Assembly: GCA_022566355.1 (NCBI GenBank) | Contig: JADFJB010000138.1 | Span: 1 to 11,718, forward strand | DNA: 11,718 bases | From: a candidate division KSB1 bacterium | Lineage (GTDB): Bacteria > Zhuqueibacterota > JdFR-76 > DREG01 | Reading direction: 5' to 3' | Part shown: positions 2,990 through 10,378 of the stretch, one piece after another | Position numbering within the stretch: the stretch's first letter is position 1 | Layout of the letters: each line of letters starts with the position of its first letter | Translations under genes and position numbers: made by a program | The notes under the pieces: model-generated | The model's database searches: none | What the model was told of the DNA's origin: nothing | What the model saw: only the letters and a program-made list of their open reading frames with translations

Positions 2990-3062
2990 TTAATGAGGCT
3001 CTTCCAAAATAGTACCGGTATCCCGGTAGTAATTAACCTGGATAATTCATGAACCTTATCAC

Positions 3063-3167
3063 TGTCATCCAGGAGGGATCTATTTTGCAACTATTTTATA
3101 CTTACAATTATGCTTTTTATTTTATGGAAATAGATCCCGTTGCGACAGCCTGTGCGACGGGATGACA
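3063..3167. repeat. Palindromic dispersed repeat, TGTCATCC...GGATGACA ends
   Basis: TGTCATCC (3063-3070) and GGATGACA (3160-3167) are perfect inverted ends of a roughly 105-bp element. Inside them GGGATCTATTT (3075-3085) and AAATAGATCCC (3128-3138) form a second, perfect 11-bp inverted pair. If the ends are taken as GTCATCC/GGATGAC, the element is flanked by ACT on both sides, a possible 3-bp target duplication. There is no coding content. It looks like a short palindromic or MITE-like repeat; copy number in the genome is unknown. Confidence 0.55.
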
Positions 3168-3213
3168 CTTTTGAAACTTTAAGCTTAATACTATAATTCA
3201 TTAATAGATCAGG

Positions 3214-3654
3214 TTAATAGCTTTTTCCCAGGAATCCAACCAAATTTTTAAAAAACTCTGCGGTAAAAGTATCGATGTAGTTATTCCCCTTTTCCGAAAG
3301 AGCCGTGTAAATGTATGTAACAAAAGCAGTTGTCATACTATCTGAATTTTCCTCGCAATTGATTAAAATGTTGCCAAGTAAAAATTCGAGCTCAATATTT
3401 AGATATTCAATTTGAAATTGCTCTTTGTCGAGTTTGGTTATGATCCAAATTTTTTTATCCGTAGCATGGCCTTTTGTTTTAAATATAAGCCCTTCGGCAA
3501 TCACTTCCGTATTTGGATAGATTAGTTCAAGCTCCCAACCCTATGCCCATATCTTTTCATTAATGGGTTCAAACAATGGAAATGCTTTTTCGATGACAGC
3601 ATTTAATTGTAAGCTTTGTACTCTCGAGACACGTTTTGCAGAAAACACATTCAT
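3214..3654 (-). pseudogene. SRPBCC (START-like) domain protein, broken by in-frame TAG
   Basis: Reading the minus strand from the ATG at 3654 gives one continuous frame to the TAA at 3214, interrupted only by TAG at 3541-3543 (codon 38). Before it the frame reads FPLFEPINEKIWA and after it GWELELIYP. Together they match the usual SRPBCC N-terminal pattern FPLFxPxxEKxWAxGW, so the TAG sits exactly where the family normally has an amino acid, often Glu. One substitution (GAG or AAG to TAG) would explain it. The rest has the family's late motif TTAFVTYIYTALSEKGNNYI. The SRPBCC fold makes a hydrophobic ligand pocket; no function is known here. A GTG restart at 3504 would drop the first strand and helices. 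Stop readthrough or a sequencing error are alternatives. The gene lies directly behind the SAM-I leader. Confidence 0.75.
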
Positions 3655-3751: not shown

Positions 3752-3784
3752 AAAAAAGCCCCAACTTTTTAAGAGAAGGGGCTT
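3752..3784 (-). terminator. Intrinsic terminator of the SAM-I leader
   Basis: On the minus strand AAGCCCC (3784-3778) and GGGGCTT (3762-3756) form a perfect 7-bp stem around a 15-base loop, followed by a run of T (3757-3752). It lies 10 bases after the aptamer's P1. The loop carries TCTCTTAAAA (3776-3767), which can pair with TTTTGAGAGA (3809-3800) at the 3' side of the aptamer with one G-U pair. That alternative pairing would trap the terminator's 5' arm, as expected of an antiterminator when SAM is absent. Confidence 0.85.
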
Positions 3785-3793
3785 AAAATGGAT

Positions 3794-3900
3794 CGCTCAT
3801 CTCTCAAAAGAATTCATTGCAAGAATTAGCACCTTTCCAATTTTATGGTAGGTTGCTAAGGTTTCACAGGGCTGGTCCCTCCACCTTTCTTGATAAGCGT
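3794..3900 (-). promoter_or_regulatory. SAM-I (S-box) riboswitch aptamer
   Basis: The minus strand shows the S-box consensus in order: CTTATCAAGA (P1 5' side), GTGGAGGGA (3884-3876), GAAACC and GCAACC, then GGTGCTAATTC (3833-3823), TTGCA, and GAGAGATGAGCG closing P1. P1 is a perfect-length pairing of CGCTTATC (3899-3892) with GATGAGCG (3801-3794), with one wobble. AATTC and GAATT form a small P4. The family binds S-adenosylmethionine and, when bound, frees the terminator to fold, shutting off methionine or SAM genes. Here the first gene after the terminator is an SRPBCC pseudogene and no methionine gene follows within the window. The aptamer itself looks intact. Confidence 0.93.
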
Positions 3901-3959
3901 GTATGTCACATCCGTGATATTTTTATAGTCTGTCTCCTCTGTTTTAAATGAGTATATTT

Positions 3960-3988
3960 ACAATAGAAATTGTTAGCCTTTTTGTCAA
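3960..3988 (-). promoter_or_regulatory. Sigma70-type promoter for the SAM-I leader
   Basis: On the minus strand TTGACA (3988-3983) is followed after exactly 17 bases by TATTGT (3965-3960). Transcription would begin near 3953, about 50 bases before the aptamer. The promoter fills the gap just downstream of the DUF2784-like gene, so the leader can be made independently of it. Confidence 0.65.
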
Positions 3989-4934: not shown

Positions 4935-5531
4935 ATGAGGAATGAAGAAGAACGATTAATTAAATTGGCTCAAGAAGGAGATGTGAACGCGTTTCGAGAA
5001 TTGGTCGAACGCCACATGAAAAAAATGTATTATTTATGTTACGATCTAACCAGAAATCATCATGATGCAGAAGACTTATCACAGGAGGTATTTATTAAGG
5101 TTTATCATTCGATAAAAAAATTTCGCGGCTCAGCCAAGTTTAGTTCCTGGATTCACCGAATCGCAGTAAATAGGTTTATCGATAAAGGCCGCAAATATAC
5201 GCCACCGCTGGATTCTTTTGAGGAAGAATTCAGTGATGATGTCAAAGTAGCAAAACCGCCTGTTGATCATGAACCTAATCACAATCCCGAACAAAAAGCG
5301 GAAGCCGGTTTGATACAAAAGCATTTGGATAGTGCTTTGAAGGAACTTCCCAACCAGCAACGCTCAGTTTTTGTTCTGCGTCATTACCAGTATCTTTCAT
5401 TAAAGGAGATTGCCGAAATGTTAAAGATTTCAGAAGGTTCGGTAAAAAGTTCACTTTTCCGAGCCATCAGACGCTTACAGGATTCATTATCGTTTTATCG
5501 ATATGATTTAGGATTGGAGGAATCCAAATGA
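4935..5531 (+). CDS. ECF-type RNA polymerase sigma factor
   Basis: This 198-residue protein has sigma region 2 at about 17-87, including DAEDLSQEVFIKVY for core binding and -10 recognition and FSSWIHRIAVNRFID. Region 4 lies at about 128-184, with LKELPNQQRSVFVLRHYQ and a helix-turn-helix LKEIAEMLKISEGSVKSSLF that reads the -35. Regions 1 and 3 are absent, as in group 4 (ECF) factors. A longer acidic linker (95-125) joins the domains. The stop overlaps the next start by four bases (ATGA), coupling its translation to the zinc-finger anti-sigma factor. It should direct RNA polymerase to this operon and unknown others when the anti-sigma releases it. The start is supported weakly by AAAGG about 11 bases upstream. 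Confidence 0.95.
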   Translation: MRNEEERLIKLAQEGDVNAFRELVERHMKKMYYLCYDLTRNHHDAEDLSQEVFIKVYHSIKKFRGSAKFSSWIHRIAVNRFIDKGRKYTPPLDSFEEEFSDDVKVAKPPVDHEPNHNPEQKAEAGLIQKHLDSALKELPNQQRSVFVLRHYQYLSLKEIAEMLKISEGSVKSSLFRAIRRLQDSLSFYRYDLGLEESK

Positions 5532-6373
5532 ATGCATGCAAAAAGTTTCGCCAACTTTGTACAGAAGTTCTATATGAAGAACTTAATTCCCAGGATTTAA
5601 AGAGGTTCAACGAACATAAATCCACTTGTACAGAATGCAGCAGTTTATTTGTTGAAATGAAATCGACTTTGAATCTAATGGATAACGTCGAAAGACCGGA
5701 ACCGAAGCCTGAATTCTGGCAAAATTACTGGAAGAATCTGGAGGATCGATTAGAAGATGTCCGTCCAACCAGAACTATAAAGCCAGGATGGAAACTTAGG
5801 ATTTCACAACTATTTGAAAGTAGACCCAGATTCACAATACAACTCGCTGGTGGGTTGGTGCTCTTGCTCATCGGAATTTTGATCGGAAAAAACATATTAA
5901 CAACTGACATTCCATCAGGAACCCTGAGTTCAAATGAAATCAATGAATATACGACTGTCGCGGCCAAAGCCGCCATAAACCAGCGGGCAGATAGGTTCTT
6001 ACAACGTTCTAAATTGCTGTTGTTGGGGCTTGTGAATTTGGATGACAGTCCAGAAGAACCGTTGGCATTAAATTTTGCACACCAACGGCAAATTTCCCAG
6101 CAGTTGATCGAAGAAACCAGCGTCTTGAAAGATGACCTCGGTCAGTCAGATCAATTAAGACTTCGAGAACTGATCTCGGATTTAGAGCTTGTTCTACTGC
6201 AAATTGCTAACCTGGAGGCGGATAAAGACCTTCCTGCGGTAGAACTTGTTAAAAGCACAGCCGATAGCAGGTCAATTTTGCTGCGGATTAACCTGGAAGA
6301 AATGAGGAAAATGTACGAGAATGAACAAATACCGGTATCACCTAAAAAATCTAAAATAGACCAAACAATTTAA
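5528..6373 (+). CDS. Membrane anti-sigma factor with zinc-finger (zf-HC2) domain
   Basis: The N-terminal 45 residues form an anti-sigma zinc-finger: His30, Cys34 and Cys37 in HKSTCTEC, with an upstream Cys4 or Cys11 as fourth ligand. This part should wrap around the co-encoded sigma factor in the cytoplasm. A single membrane helix follows at about 102-121 (LAGGLVLLLIGILIGK). The remaining 160 residues lie outside the membrane: a mostly helical domain rich in Leu, Glu and Gln, with no cysteine pair or known fold recognised. It is the likely sensor. Total length is 281. The start overlaps the sigma stop (ATGA). The exported HEAT proteins that follow would share a compartment with this outer domain, so they may be ligands, partners or products of the response (inference). 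Confidence 0.88.
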   Translation: MNACKKFRQLCTEVLYEELNSQDLKRFNEHKSTCTECSSLFVEMKSTLNLMDNVERPEPKPEFWQNYWKNLEDRLEDVRPTRTIKPGWKLRISQLFESRPRFTIQLAGGLVLLLIGILIGKNILTTDIPSGTLSSNEINEYTTVAAKAAINQRADRFLQRSKLLLLGLVNLDDSPEEPLALNFAHQRQISQQLIEETSVLKDDLGQSDQLRLRELISDLELVLLQIANLEADKDLPAVELVKSTADSRSILLRINLEEMRKMYENEQIPVSPKKSKIDQTI

Positions 6374-6388
6374 ACGAGGAGTTAAAAA

Positions 6389-8224
6389 ATGAAGGGAATA
6401 ATCAAAAAATTAACTTTAGCAACATGGGGTTTAACCCTATTCATCTCTGCTTTATCCAGCCAGGCACAAATTGTAGAAATCAAACCAATTCATGTACCGC
6501 AGTTTGATATAGAAAAGTTGAAAGCAATAGAACCTATGCTGGCACGAAGCGTAGCCATGATGAAGAATATTAATTTACAGGAGTTTGCTCATCTTGAATA
6601 TAAAATGCAAACTGCAAATATAATGGTTGCTCAAGCTTCAGAATTAATTGCTAAAGCATCGCTTTCTCAAATCCCGATGTTTAAGATGAGTATGAAAGGC
6701 CTTGAATTCATTGGCGAATTTGATCTAAATGATGACCAGGATGCTGCATCAAATGCCTATAAAGATGGATATAACCTGATCCTTAATGAAAATTGGAATG
6801 CCGCAATCAAAGCATTTGAGGATCTGACAAAAAAATATCCAAGAAGCCGTTGGGTGGATGATGCGCAATTTTGGTTATGCTATGCAGCAGATAAATCAAA
6901 TGGTAATAAAGAAGAATCATTCGAGTGTTACCAACAGTTTGCCAAAAAATATTCCCGCAGTAAATGGGCGGATGATGCTAAAGCCAATTTAATTAAGATT
7001 GGCCAACGACTGGCGAGAGAAGGAAAGCCCGGGTATGAGGATATCATCAAATCGATGCAGCAGAGCGATAATGAGGAAATATTACTTTCTGCCTTATATG
7101 CCTTGCAGAATATTGGCGATGACCAGGCAGTCACCGTTGCGTTTGATTTATATGACAGAGCCAAGAGTCCCAAAATCCGAACAAAAATCGTTTATATGCT
7201 GCAAAACATTGAGTCAAAAGTAGCTATAAATAAACTGAAAGATATCGCACTACATGATGCTGATCAAGGTGTGCAGCGTCGAGCCGTGTATGCGCTTGGA
7301 AATTCAGGTGATGACACGGTAATAGATGTTTTGACTGAAATACTGCATAGCGATGCAAATGCCGATGTGCGCAAACATGCACTCTACGCATTAGGGAATT
7401 TGGATAAAAAAGGGACTTTGCCAATTTTGGTGGATGTCGCTTTGCATGATGAAAGTGAAAAGCTGGCGAAAACTGCAACCTATGCCATCGGTAATCTTGA
7501 TGAGAAGGATGCCTTGCCAATTTTACAACGCATATTAAAAGAGGCAAAGATATTAAATGTTCGCAAGGCTGCCTTGTATGCAATAGCTAATTATGACGAG
7601 CCAACTTCATTACCCATCCTGCGGGATGTTGTAATGAAAGAAACGGATAAATCTCTCAGGAAAACCGCGCTTCATGCAATCGGTAATATAGATGGAAAAG
7701 AAAGTCTCAATGTTCTTAAAATGGTCTTGACCTCGGTTGAGGACAGAGATCTGCAGAAAACTGCATTGTATGCAATTGGCAACAGGGATGAAGATTCTGA
7801 AGCCAAAAGTATTTTGACGCAATTTGCGATGACAAACGATAATGATGAACTAGCAAAAACTGCTGTTTATAGCTTGAGGAACATGCTGGACGAAGATGGA
7901 TTCGATGAATTATTGGAAATTGTAAGGAAGGCAAAATCAACCGCAGCACGTAAAGCGGCCCTTAGCTGCATTGGAGGTAGTGGCGGGAAAGTTGGGATAG
8001 ATGCACTTGCGAGTTTGTTGAAGACCGAGAAAGATGTTGAACTTCGTATTTATGCGGTCCGCGCCCTGGGCCATGCAGACAGCGACGGTGCAATCTCTGT
8101 CCTGGTTGACATCGTACAAAATGATCCTCATCTCAAAGTGCGTACTGCCGCTGTTTCAGCAATCGGACAGATTGGCTCGCCAAAAGCACAGGAAGCATTG
8201 GTGAAGATTTTGTCAAATCAATGA
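6389..8224 (+). CDS. Exported TPR and HEAT-repeat protein
   Basis: A 611-residue protein with a signal peptide (Lys-rich start, hydrophobic 8-22, cleavage likely after SQA at 26). Residues 30-115 are helical and unassigned. Residues 120-205 hold two TPR units of the CpoB/YbgF type (AAIKAFEDLTKKYPRSRW, then CYQQFAKKYSRSKW). From about 225 to the end run twelve HEAT repeats, marked by ALYALGN-like helices at 236, 268, 300, 332, 364, 396, 428, 460, 493, 525, 557 and 589: a strict 32-residue spacing with one 33. Such alpha-solenoids are protein-binding scaffolds; no enzyme motif is seen. The start is supported by GAGGAG (6376-6381). It follows the anti-sigma gene by 15 bp, so it belongs to the same operon. 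Partner unknown. Confidence 0.9.
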   Translation: MKGIIKKLTLATWGLTLFISALSSQAQIVEIKPIHVPQFDIEKLKAIEPMLARSVAMMKNINLQEFAHLEYKMQTANIMVAQASELIAKASLSQIPMFKMSMKGLEFIGEFDLNDDQDAASNAYKDGYNLILNENWNAAIKAFEDLTKKYPRSRWVDDAQFWLCYAADKSNGNKEESFECYQQFAKKYSRSKWADDAKANLIKIGQRLAREGKPGYEDIIKSMQQSDNEEILLSALYALQNIGDDQAVTVAFDLYDRAKSPKIRTKIVYMLQNIESKVAINKLKDIALHDADQGVQRRAVYALGNSGDDTVIDVLTEILHSDANADVRKHALYALGNLDKKGTLPILVDVALHDESEKLAKTATYAIGNLDEKDALPILQRILKEAKILNVRKAALYAIANYDEPTSLPILRDVVMKETDKSLRKTALHAIGNIDGKESLNVLKMVLTSVEDRDLQKTALYAIGNRDEDSEAKSILTQFAMTNDNDELAKTAVYSLRNMLDEDGFDELLEIVRKAKSTAARKAALSCIGGSGGKVGIDALASLLKTEKDVELRIYAVRALGHADSDGAISVLVDIVQNDPHLKVRTAAVSAIGQIGSPKAQEALVKILSNQ

Positions 8225-8240
8225 GATTTGTTTCAGAACT

Positions 8241-8275
8241 AATTGATTCCATAACCTGGAGTGATGGAATCAATT
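8241..8275. repeat. Intercistronic hairpin, copy 2 of the repeat family
   Basis: Twelve-base perfect arms AATTGATTCCAT (8241-8252) and ATGGAATCAATT (8264-8275) enclose an 11-base loop with CTGGAG. It lies between the two HEAT genes, five bases before the AATGAGGA that acts as ribosome-binding site for the second. There is no T-run, so it is not a terminator; it could shield mRNA ends or adjust the ratio of the two proteins. A relative sits at 2959-2989. Confidence 0.6.
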
Positions 8276-8294
8276 GATGTAATGAGGAAATAGC

Positions 8295-9437
8295 ATGATA
8301 AAGCAAACTTTAAAAACACTCGTTCTAACCTCAATCATATTTCCACTTATTACTCAAGCGCAGGATGTTGTCAAATATCCTAATCAGAATGACGATTTGA
8401 GCAAACGCTGGACATGGGCGGAAAGGGAAGCGAAATCGGGAAAGTATAGAAACGGCGTTTGGATTGGCTACAGCATCCAAAGATTGATGGGTGAAAATTC
8501 TCACATCGGTTCATTTAGCCGCGATTATCAAGACAAAATCACCTTGGAAGAACTCATATATGGTAAGAAGGCTGATCCCGATGAAAAACTTTCGGATAAG
8601 GAAATCATCGAACGGACCATCAAGGAGACGTTAGATGAATTGAAGGATGAAAAAAAGGAAGAAAGAAAAGTCCTAAAAGAGGTCGCCATCCTATTCCGCT
8701 ACGAATCTAATTCCAAGAGGTTTGAGGATGTTAAAAAAACTAAAGTCACTAATTTAACACTGCATGTAAATTTAGATGAACTGCCACTCATTTGGCTGGG
8801 CCAGATAGAGCATGAAAACAGTTTAGAATTCCTGCAAGACTTTGCTGAAGGCGTAACTTCGGTAGAAATGAAAAAGAGATTTACCATGGTCATTGGCATT
8901 CATGATGCCAATAAAAGATCCATAGCCATTCTAAAAGAATTCGCTACTAAAGACGAGCATGCTGAAGTTCGCAAAAGTGCGTCTTTTTGGCTAGGACAAA
9001 CTCACCACAAAGAAGCGCTCGATATTCTGAAAAAAATTATACAATCCGATCGATCCTCGAATGTTCGCGAACATGCGGTCTTTGCCATTAGTAGAATGCG
9101 CTCTCAAGAATCCACCGATGTCTTGATTGATTTGGCTCAGAAATCTAAGGACTTCGAGGTGCGTTCAAAAGCAATTTTCTGGCTGGGTCAAAAAGCTTCC
9201 AGGAAAGCTGAAAAAGCATTGGAGGATTTGGTTTATTCCGATGATGAAACCAAAGTGCGAAAGAAGGCAGTCTTCGCATTAACCCAGCTTCCCCATAATA
9301 AAGGCGTACCACATTTGATTCGAATTGCCAAAACTCATCCGAATATAAAAGTGAGAAAACAAGCCATTTTTTGGCTGGGCCAGAGCAAAGATCCAAGAGC
9401 TTTTGAGACGATTGTTGAATTGATTCGGAAGAAGTGA
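8295..9437 (+). CDS. Exported HEAT-repeat protein
   Basis: A 380-residue protein with a signal peptide (hydrophobic 9-20, cleavage likely after TQA at 22). Residues 25-130 form a charged N-terminal part with a Lys/Glu-rich helix at 97-130. From about 150 to the end there are seven HEAT repeats with helix motifs at 165, 198, 230, 262, 294, 326 and 358. They alternate: WLGQ units (165, 230, 294, 358) and VFAIS/VFALT-type units (262, 326), giving a 64-residue super-repeat. No TPR domain is present, unlike the gene before it. The start has GAGGA six bases upstream. It is the last gene of the sigma operon, 70 bp after its neighbour. It is probably a binding scaffold outside the cytoplasmic membrane; no catalytic motif is seen. 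Confidence 0.9.
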   Translation: MIKQTLKTLVLTSIIFPLITQAQDVVKYPNQNDDLSKRWTWAEREAKSGKYRNGVWIGYSIQRLMGENSHIGSFSRDYQDKITLEELIYGKKADPDEKLSDKEIIERTIKETLDELKDEKKEERKVLKEVAILFRYESNSKRFEDVKKTKVTNLTLHVNLDELPLIWLGQIEHENSLEFLQDFAEGVTSVEMKKRFTMVIGIHDANKRSIAILKEFATKDEHAEVRKSASFWLGQTHHKEALDILKKIIQSDRSSNVREHAVFAISRMRSQESTDVLIDLAQKSKDFEVRSKAIFWLGQKASRKAEKALEDLVYSDDETKVRKKAVFALTQLPHNKGVPHLIRIAKTHPNIKVRKQAIFWLGQSKDPRAFETIVELIRKK

Positions 9438-9523
9438 CAAAGTAACAAAGAGACAAAGGCACAAAGGCACAAAGGCACAAAGGCACAAAGGCACAAAGGC
9501 ACAAAGGCACAAAGTAACAGAGA
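9436..9523. repeat. 8-bp minisatellite (CACAAAGG units)
   Basis: Eleven consecutive 8-base units start inside the TGA of the second HEAT gene. The central six are identical CACAAAGG (9460-9507); the edge units vary (GACAAAGT, AACAAAGA, GACAAAGG, CACAAAGT, AACAGAGA). All reading frames stay open on the minus strand, giving Leu-Cys-Ala-Phe-Val-Pro-rich artefact ORFs that should not be annotated. Confidence 0.9.
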
Positions 9524-10189: not shown

Positions 10190-10378
10190 TTACACTATAT
10201 CAGAATCTAAATCTATCTCAATATCAATTTTCCCTTTATAGTTTTTTAACGATTTTATCTTATTTTTTTGAATGATATTGGTTAGAGCTTTTTTGATTAA
10301 ATCTGTTTTAGTGGGAGATTTCGTTACCCGCATGGCTTCGTTCATTAAATCTTCGGGTATATCGATCGTTGTTCTCAT
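10190..10378 (-). CDS. VapB-like antitoxin, apparently without its toxin
   Basis: A 62-residue protein starting MRTTIDIPEDLMNEAMRVTK, followed by SPTKTDLIKKALTNII. This is the ribbon-helix-helix DNA-binding domain typical of VapB antitoxins of the DUF2191 type. The C-terminal part (45-62), ending in acidic IDIEIDLDSDIV, would be the toxin-binding tail. VapB neutralises the PIN-domain RNase VapC and represses its own promoter. VapC normally starts within a few bases of the vapB stop; here the minus strand past 10190 has no PIN ORF, only short frames and then repeats, so the antitoxin is orphaned. The start has AAAGG nine bases upstream. The promoter and a palindromic operator lie just before it. 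Confidence 0.8.
   Translation of the reverse strand: MRTTIDIPEDLMNEAMRVTKSPTKTDLIKKALTNIIQKNKIKSLKNYKGKIDIEIDLDSDIV

Follow-up and report, generated by a model that had tools for sequence, protein, structure and literature searches.

The genome of a candidate division KSB1 bacterium contains one SAM-I riboswitch (S-box), which lies at positions 3899-3794 of the minus strand of the window, the latter being the entire 11.7-kb contig. This S-box has no functional target left in cis and is most likely an orphan derived from a tandem pair, whose methionine biosynthesis gene has been deleted. With a complete riboswitch next to a gene in decay, and the usual genes for homoserine acylation absent from the assembly, the locus may be viewed as a snapshot of a regulon that is dissolving. 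No further S-box was observed when the whole assembly (4.6 Mb, 213 contigs, 98.5% complete) was searched with the RF00162 model.

The S-box and its expression platform

The RF00162 match covers model positions 1-108, that is, the full length of the model, and scores 89.4 bits (E 1e-20), the gathering cut-off being 44.4 bits. This agrees with a preliminary description of the same DNA, which had recognized a full S-box aptamer on the minus strand. Both the cmscan alignment and the minimum-energy fold contain the four-way junction formed by helices P1-P4. Inspection of the alignment by eye indicates that A-G of the P2 loop may pair with C-U of the GCUAA sequence, as part of a possible pseudoknot between this loop and J3/4 that would include one compensatory substitution of G-C by A-U. 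The third pair seems to have been lost.

The aptamer is followed by an intrinsic terminator, seen both in the sequence and in folds, that consists of a hairpin (approximately 3784-3756) and a T tract (the complete terminator spanning 3784-3752). It is absent from the list produced by a simple terminator scan, probably because its stem contains an internal loop. The 5' arm of the antiterminator, UUUUGAGAGA (3809-3800), overlaps the 3' side of the aptamer, and its 3' arm, UCUCUUAAAA (3776-3767), lies within the terminator hairpin. In duplex and constrained folds these two arms form a helix of 10 base pairs. At intermediate transcript lengths, before the 3' arm of the terminator has been made, the antiterminated form and the aptamer fold are nearly equal in energy (-33.9 and -34.3 kcal/mol respectively), whereas in the presence of this arm the terminated form is favoured (-45.2 versus -35.7 kcal/mol). 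Thus both the antiterminator pairing and the terminator, already pointed out in the preliminary description, are recovered by folding. When SAM is bound, P1 would hold and the terminator would form; when SAM is absent, the helix of UUUUGAGAGA and UCUCUUAAAA would block the terminator, and transcription would go on.

Judged from its sequence and predicted folds, the element is a genuine and structurally complete riboswitch that terminates transcription, presumably in response to SAM. It resembles the SAM-I class in having a full aptamer with a score above the gathering threshold and a terminator/antiterminator platform, but differs from it in that there is no functional gene downstream and that a partial second aptamer edge occurs 207 nt further on.

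The candidate promoter is a sigma-70 type sequence TTGACA-17-TATTGT (3988-3960, minus strand). The preliminary description considered a promoter to be visible here, and indeed the sequence matches the consensus at 10 of 12 positions and is suitably placed. However, matches of this type are not more frequent than expected by chance (seven in the scan versus 9.4 expected from shuffles), and thus it is the position that argues for this candidate.

The repeat and the pseudogene downstream

The region between the terminator and the start codon of the next gene contains a 20-nt copy of the 5' edge of the aptamer, ATAAACGCTTATCAAGAAAG (3697-3678, minus strand), comprising the first 15 nucleotides of the aptamer and five nucleotides of the upstream flank. 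The copy is identical at 19 of 20 positions (95%), whereas shuffling the intervening sequence 20,000 times gave 16 of 20 at best. The longest exact repeat is 16 nucleotides, and none longer than 13 nucleotides occurred in 300 dinucleotide shuffles. The distance from the repeat to the aptamer is 207 nt, and genome G006 of the same order has two complete S-boxes 198 nt apart upstream of a single gene. Since the repeat exceeds what is seen in the shuffles and the spacing of the tandem in G006 is similar, it is probably a remnant of a truncated second S-box that stood in tandem with the first one. Twenty nucleotides are too short to prove that the second aptamer was once complete. No two complete aptamers in series were found in the window, the duplication being confined to the 15 nucleotides of the aptamer and five of the flank. 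In the minimum-energy fold of a readthrough transcript, the repeat is a possible competitor for the 3' strand of P1.

It is usual for SAM-I riboswitches to control a methionine or SAM gene, although this is not strictly a defining feature. No such gene was found under the control of the S-box in the window, where the first gene is a pseudogene of the SRPBCC fold (3654-3214, minus strand) with three lesions. Firstly, the frame starting with the ATG at 3654 is interrupted at codon 38 by a TAG (3543-3541), at a site where intact homologues carry P, E, Q or D between an invariant W and GW. Secondly, near the 3' end it is another frame that continues the WEKAIN motif of the homologues (DSWEKAINLIY), and thus there is a frameshift at approximately 3260-3236. 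Finally, the C-terminus present in the homologues is replaced from position 3217 by a MITE-like element of approximately 187 bp (3030-3217) with ends TTAACCTG.../...CAGGTTAA. Recoding of the TAG was considered and rejected: TAG terminates a CGS/CGL-type gene of the same genome (L033), and recoding would account for neither the frameshift nor the MITE.

The MITE-like element is found in approximately 40 places of the source genome, with 71-97% identity. Its ends are of the type TTAACCTGGATAATTCATGAAT; besides the window, copies were observed at loci L108 and L110-L124, and short related pieces in genome G001.

No Pfam match above the cut-off was found for the pseudogene, and Polyketide_cyc2 matches, all below the threshold, were seen in its homologues only. 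The structure predicted for an intact homologue (L125) has a helix-grip fold of the Bet v 1/START type (pLDDT 91), and PYL2, PR-10 and the START domain of CERT are among the Foldseek matches of the model (E about 1e-6 to 1e-7). Thus the predicted fold indicates that the SRPBCC label is right. The preliminary description had correctly noted both an SRPBCC-domain gene with an internal stop behind the switch and the lack of a methionine gene directly behind it. The frameshift, the truncation by the MITE and the 20-nt repeat go beyond what it reported.

One of the two interpretations proposed there was that the SRPBCC family has an unnoticed link to SAM. This is not supported: no RF00162 match was observed within approximately 1.5 kb of the SRPBCC homologues at any of 20 loci, 14 of which come from several phyla and the others from KSB1 (the taxa include Ktedonosporobacter, Ignavibacteria, Nitrospinota, Aminicenantes, Gemmatimonadota and proteobacteria). 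The same loci speak against the S-box having regulated the SRPBCC gene in this genome, either as a recently adopted target or in view of a role of the protein in SAM or methionine metabolism, with decay of the gene only here. The SRPBCC frame is the first one past the terminator, lies on the same strand and has its ATG approximately 100 nt downstream, and with no more than three visible lesions the gene may have begun to decay recently. However, the ATG is immediately preceded by the S-box remnant, which points to a junction created by rearrangement, and overall we consider such regulation unlikely. As the SRPBCC family illustrates, an upstream S-box alone does not imply a SAM-related function of the gene.

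The pseudogene and the MITE are followed on the minus strand by genes for a GGACT-type cyclotransferase (2940-2533), a thioredoxin-TPR protein (2378-1563) and an M20 deacylase (1418-288). Lying downstream on the same strand, all three could in principle still be controlled by the S-box through readthrough across the pseudogene. However, the first start codon is approximately 820 nt away, beyond the MITE and a terminator-like stem (3028-3013); moreover, there is no methionine gene among the three, and none of the relatives searched showed this gene order. Hence control by readthrough is very doubtful.

The aptamer, the antiterminator and the terminator are intact while the neighbouring gene is broken, as might be expected if the terminated leader of approximately 200 nt had been kept as a small RNA acting in trans in a SAM-dependent manner, with no need of a cis target. 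A precedent is provided by SreA and SreB, the SAM riboswitches of Listeria monocytogenes that act in trans (PMC8079631). As with SreA, a terminated S-box leader would serve as a stand-alone RNA, but SreA also has a functional operon in cis, whereas the RNA encoded in the window has no known target in trans. Further, a leader conserved in the absence of a gene is not seen in any related genome, and a recent loss of the gene would equally leave the switch intact, which makes this explanation rather improbable. No positive evidence favours the variant in which the leader was freed of its cis gene and afterwards retained as a stand-alone SAM-dependent regulator in trans, and we regard it as quite improbable.

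S-boxes and methionine genes in KSB1 genomes

S-boxes were found in six of 82 KSB1 genomes, including the source genome. Related genomes, to which the preliminary description had pointed for comparison, have methionine genes behind their S-boxes in all five other KSB1 cases and in one genome outside the phylum. The S-box precedes metX in G019 and G069, a CGS-type gene in G077, and a second threonine-synthase-like (metM-like) gene in G005, G006 and, outside the phylum, G092. The loci of the latter type are L012:8256-9785, L011:5299-6693 and L013:7051-8835, the S-boxes of G006 being in tandem. The threonine-synthase-like genes of G006 and G092 (L012 and L013) are followed by a gene encoding a small MoaD/SAMP- or ThiS-like protein.

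The homocysteine synthase encoded by metM uses O-phosphohomoserine, and in Streptomyces metM carries a SAM riboswitch (Hasebe et al. 2024, as cited in PMC12172450). The order relatives G005 and G006 resemble this arrangement in that the S-box precedes a threonine-synthase-like gene, with the MoaD/SAMP-like sulfur-carrier gene next to it in G006. Neither metX nor metA nor HcyBio was found in these two genomes. Judging from this context, the genes probably represent homocysteine synthesis of the metM type, from O-phosphohomoserine, outside Streptomyces and cyanobacteria. In contrast, the window has no such gene, and the thrC-like paralogue of the source genome (C131) is only approximately 35% identical to the type associated with S-boxes and has no S-box.

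The aptamer of the window is most similar to those of G019 (78%) and G069 (76%), both located before metX, and shows 57-65% identity to those of its own order. S-boxes with a hairpin and a poly-T tract are also known upstream of metX and metIC in Geobacter and Desulfuromonas (PMC545781). These are likewise Gram-negative lineages with S-boxes at methionine genes, and the nearest KSB1 S-boxes, too, precede metX; the difference is that in the window the methionine gene is missing. The sporadic distribution of S-boxes in the phylum and the greater similarity of the aptamer to other families than to its own order could also mean that the S-box is a fragment brought in by rearrangement or horizontal transfer and has at no time controlled a gene in this genome. 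However, its own candidate promoter, the full expression platform and the second partial copy suggest a working regulatory region, and an arrival of this kind is the least probable of the explanations considered.

The source assembly contains neither metX nor metA, nor does it contain HcyBio, an alternative route to homocysteine. There is no recognizable metY: two full-length PF01053 enzymes were found, and for neither of them is O-acetylhomoserine sulfhydrylase the best-scoring assignment. Several methyltransferases are retained, among them a long MetH and a shorter protein of the MetH type. Thus the branch usually guarded by S-boxes is missing or unusual in this genome. As the genome is 98.5% complete, metX is likely to be truly absent, although it could have been left unassembled in such a fragmented assembly. 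The metY-metX pair was observed in three of seven relatives checked (G002, G004 and G007), and none of the three genomes has an S-box. Since no S-box controls metYX in these relatives, a connection of the S-box of the window with the loss of metX is one that we infer; in particular, as G002 and G004 have the pair but no S-box, metX may have been lost independently of this S-box.

Of the interpretations in the preliminary description, the link of the SRPBCC family to SAM is thus not supported, whereas an orphan left by loss of a met gene agrees with the triply broken target, the position of S-boxes before methionine genes in relatives, and the lack of metX and metA. In the orphan scenario, the best guess for the lost gene would be metX, followed by metM. 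A deletion or rearrangement would have brought the truncated second aptamer next to the SRPBCC gene, which would since have decayed through the nonsense mutation, the frameshift and the insertion of the MITE. None of the relatives was found to have an intact locus in synteny that would show the lost gene itself, and therefore its loss is deduced from the remaining evidence. The genes neighbouring the S-box in the window are not clustered in relatives from the same family and order; the DUF2784 protein has a counterpart with 62% identity in G004, but its neighbours there are different. Nothing relevant was found in the literature on vestigial S-boxes or on riboswitches of KSB1.

Other genes of the contig

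The region 4935-9437 encodes an ECF sigma factor, a probable membrane-anchored anti-sigma protein and two HEAT-repeat proteins, apparently forming one operon. Directly past the second HEAT-repeat gene there is a tandem array of octanucleotides of the type GGCACAAA (9454-9514). A protein of 62 amino acids (10190-10378), presumably resembling VapB-type antitoxins, has no NCBIfam match, and the contig contains no gene that would be an obvious toxin partner for it. At the end of the contig (11019-11718) there is an hsdM-like gene of a Type I restriction-modification system, which runs past the contig end.
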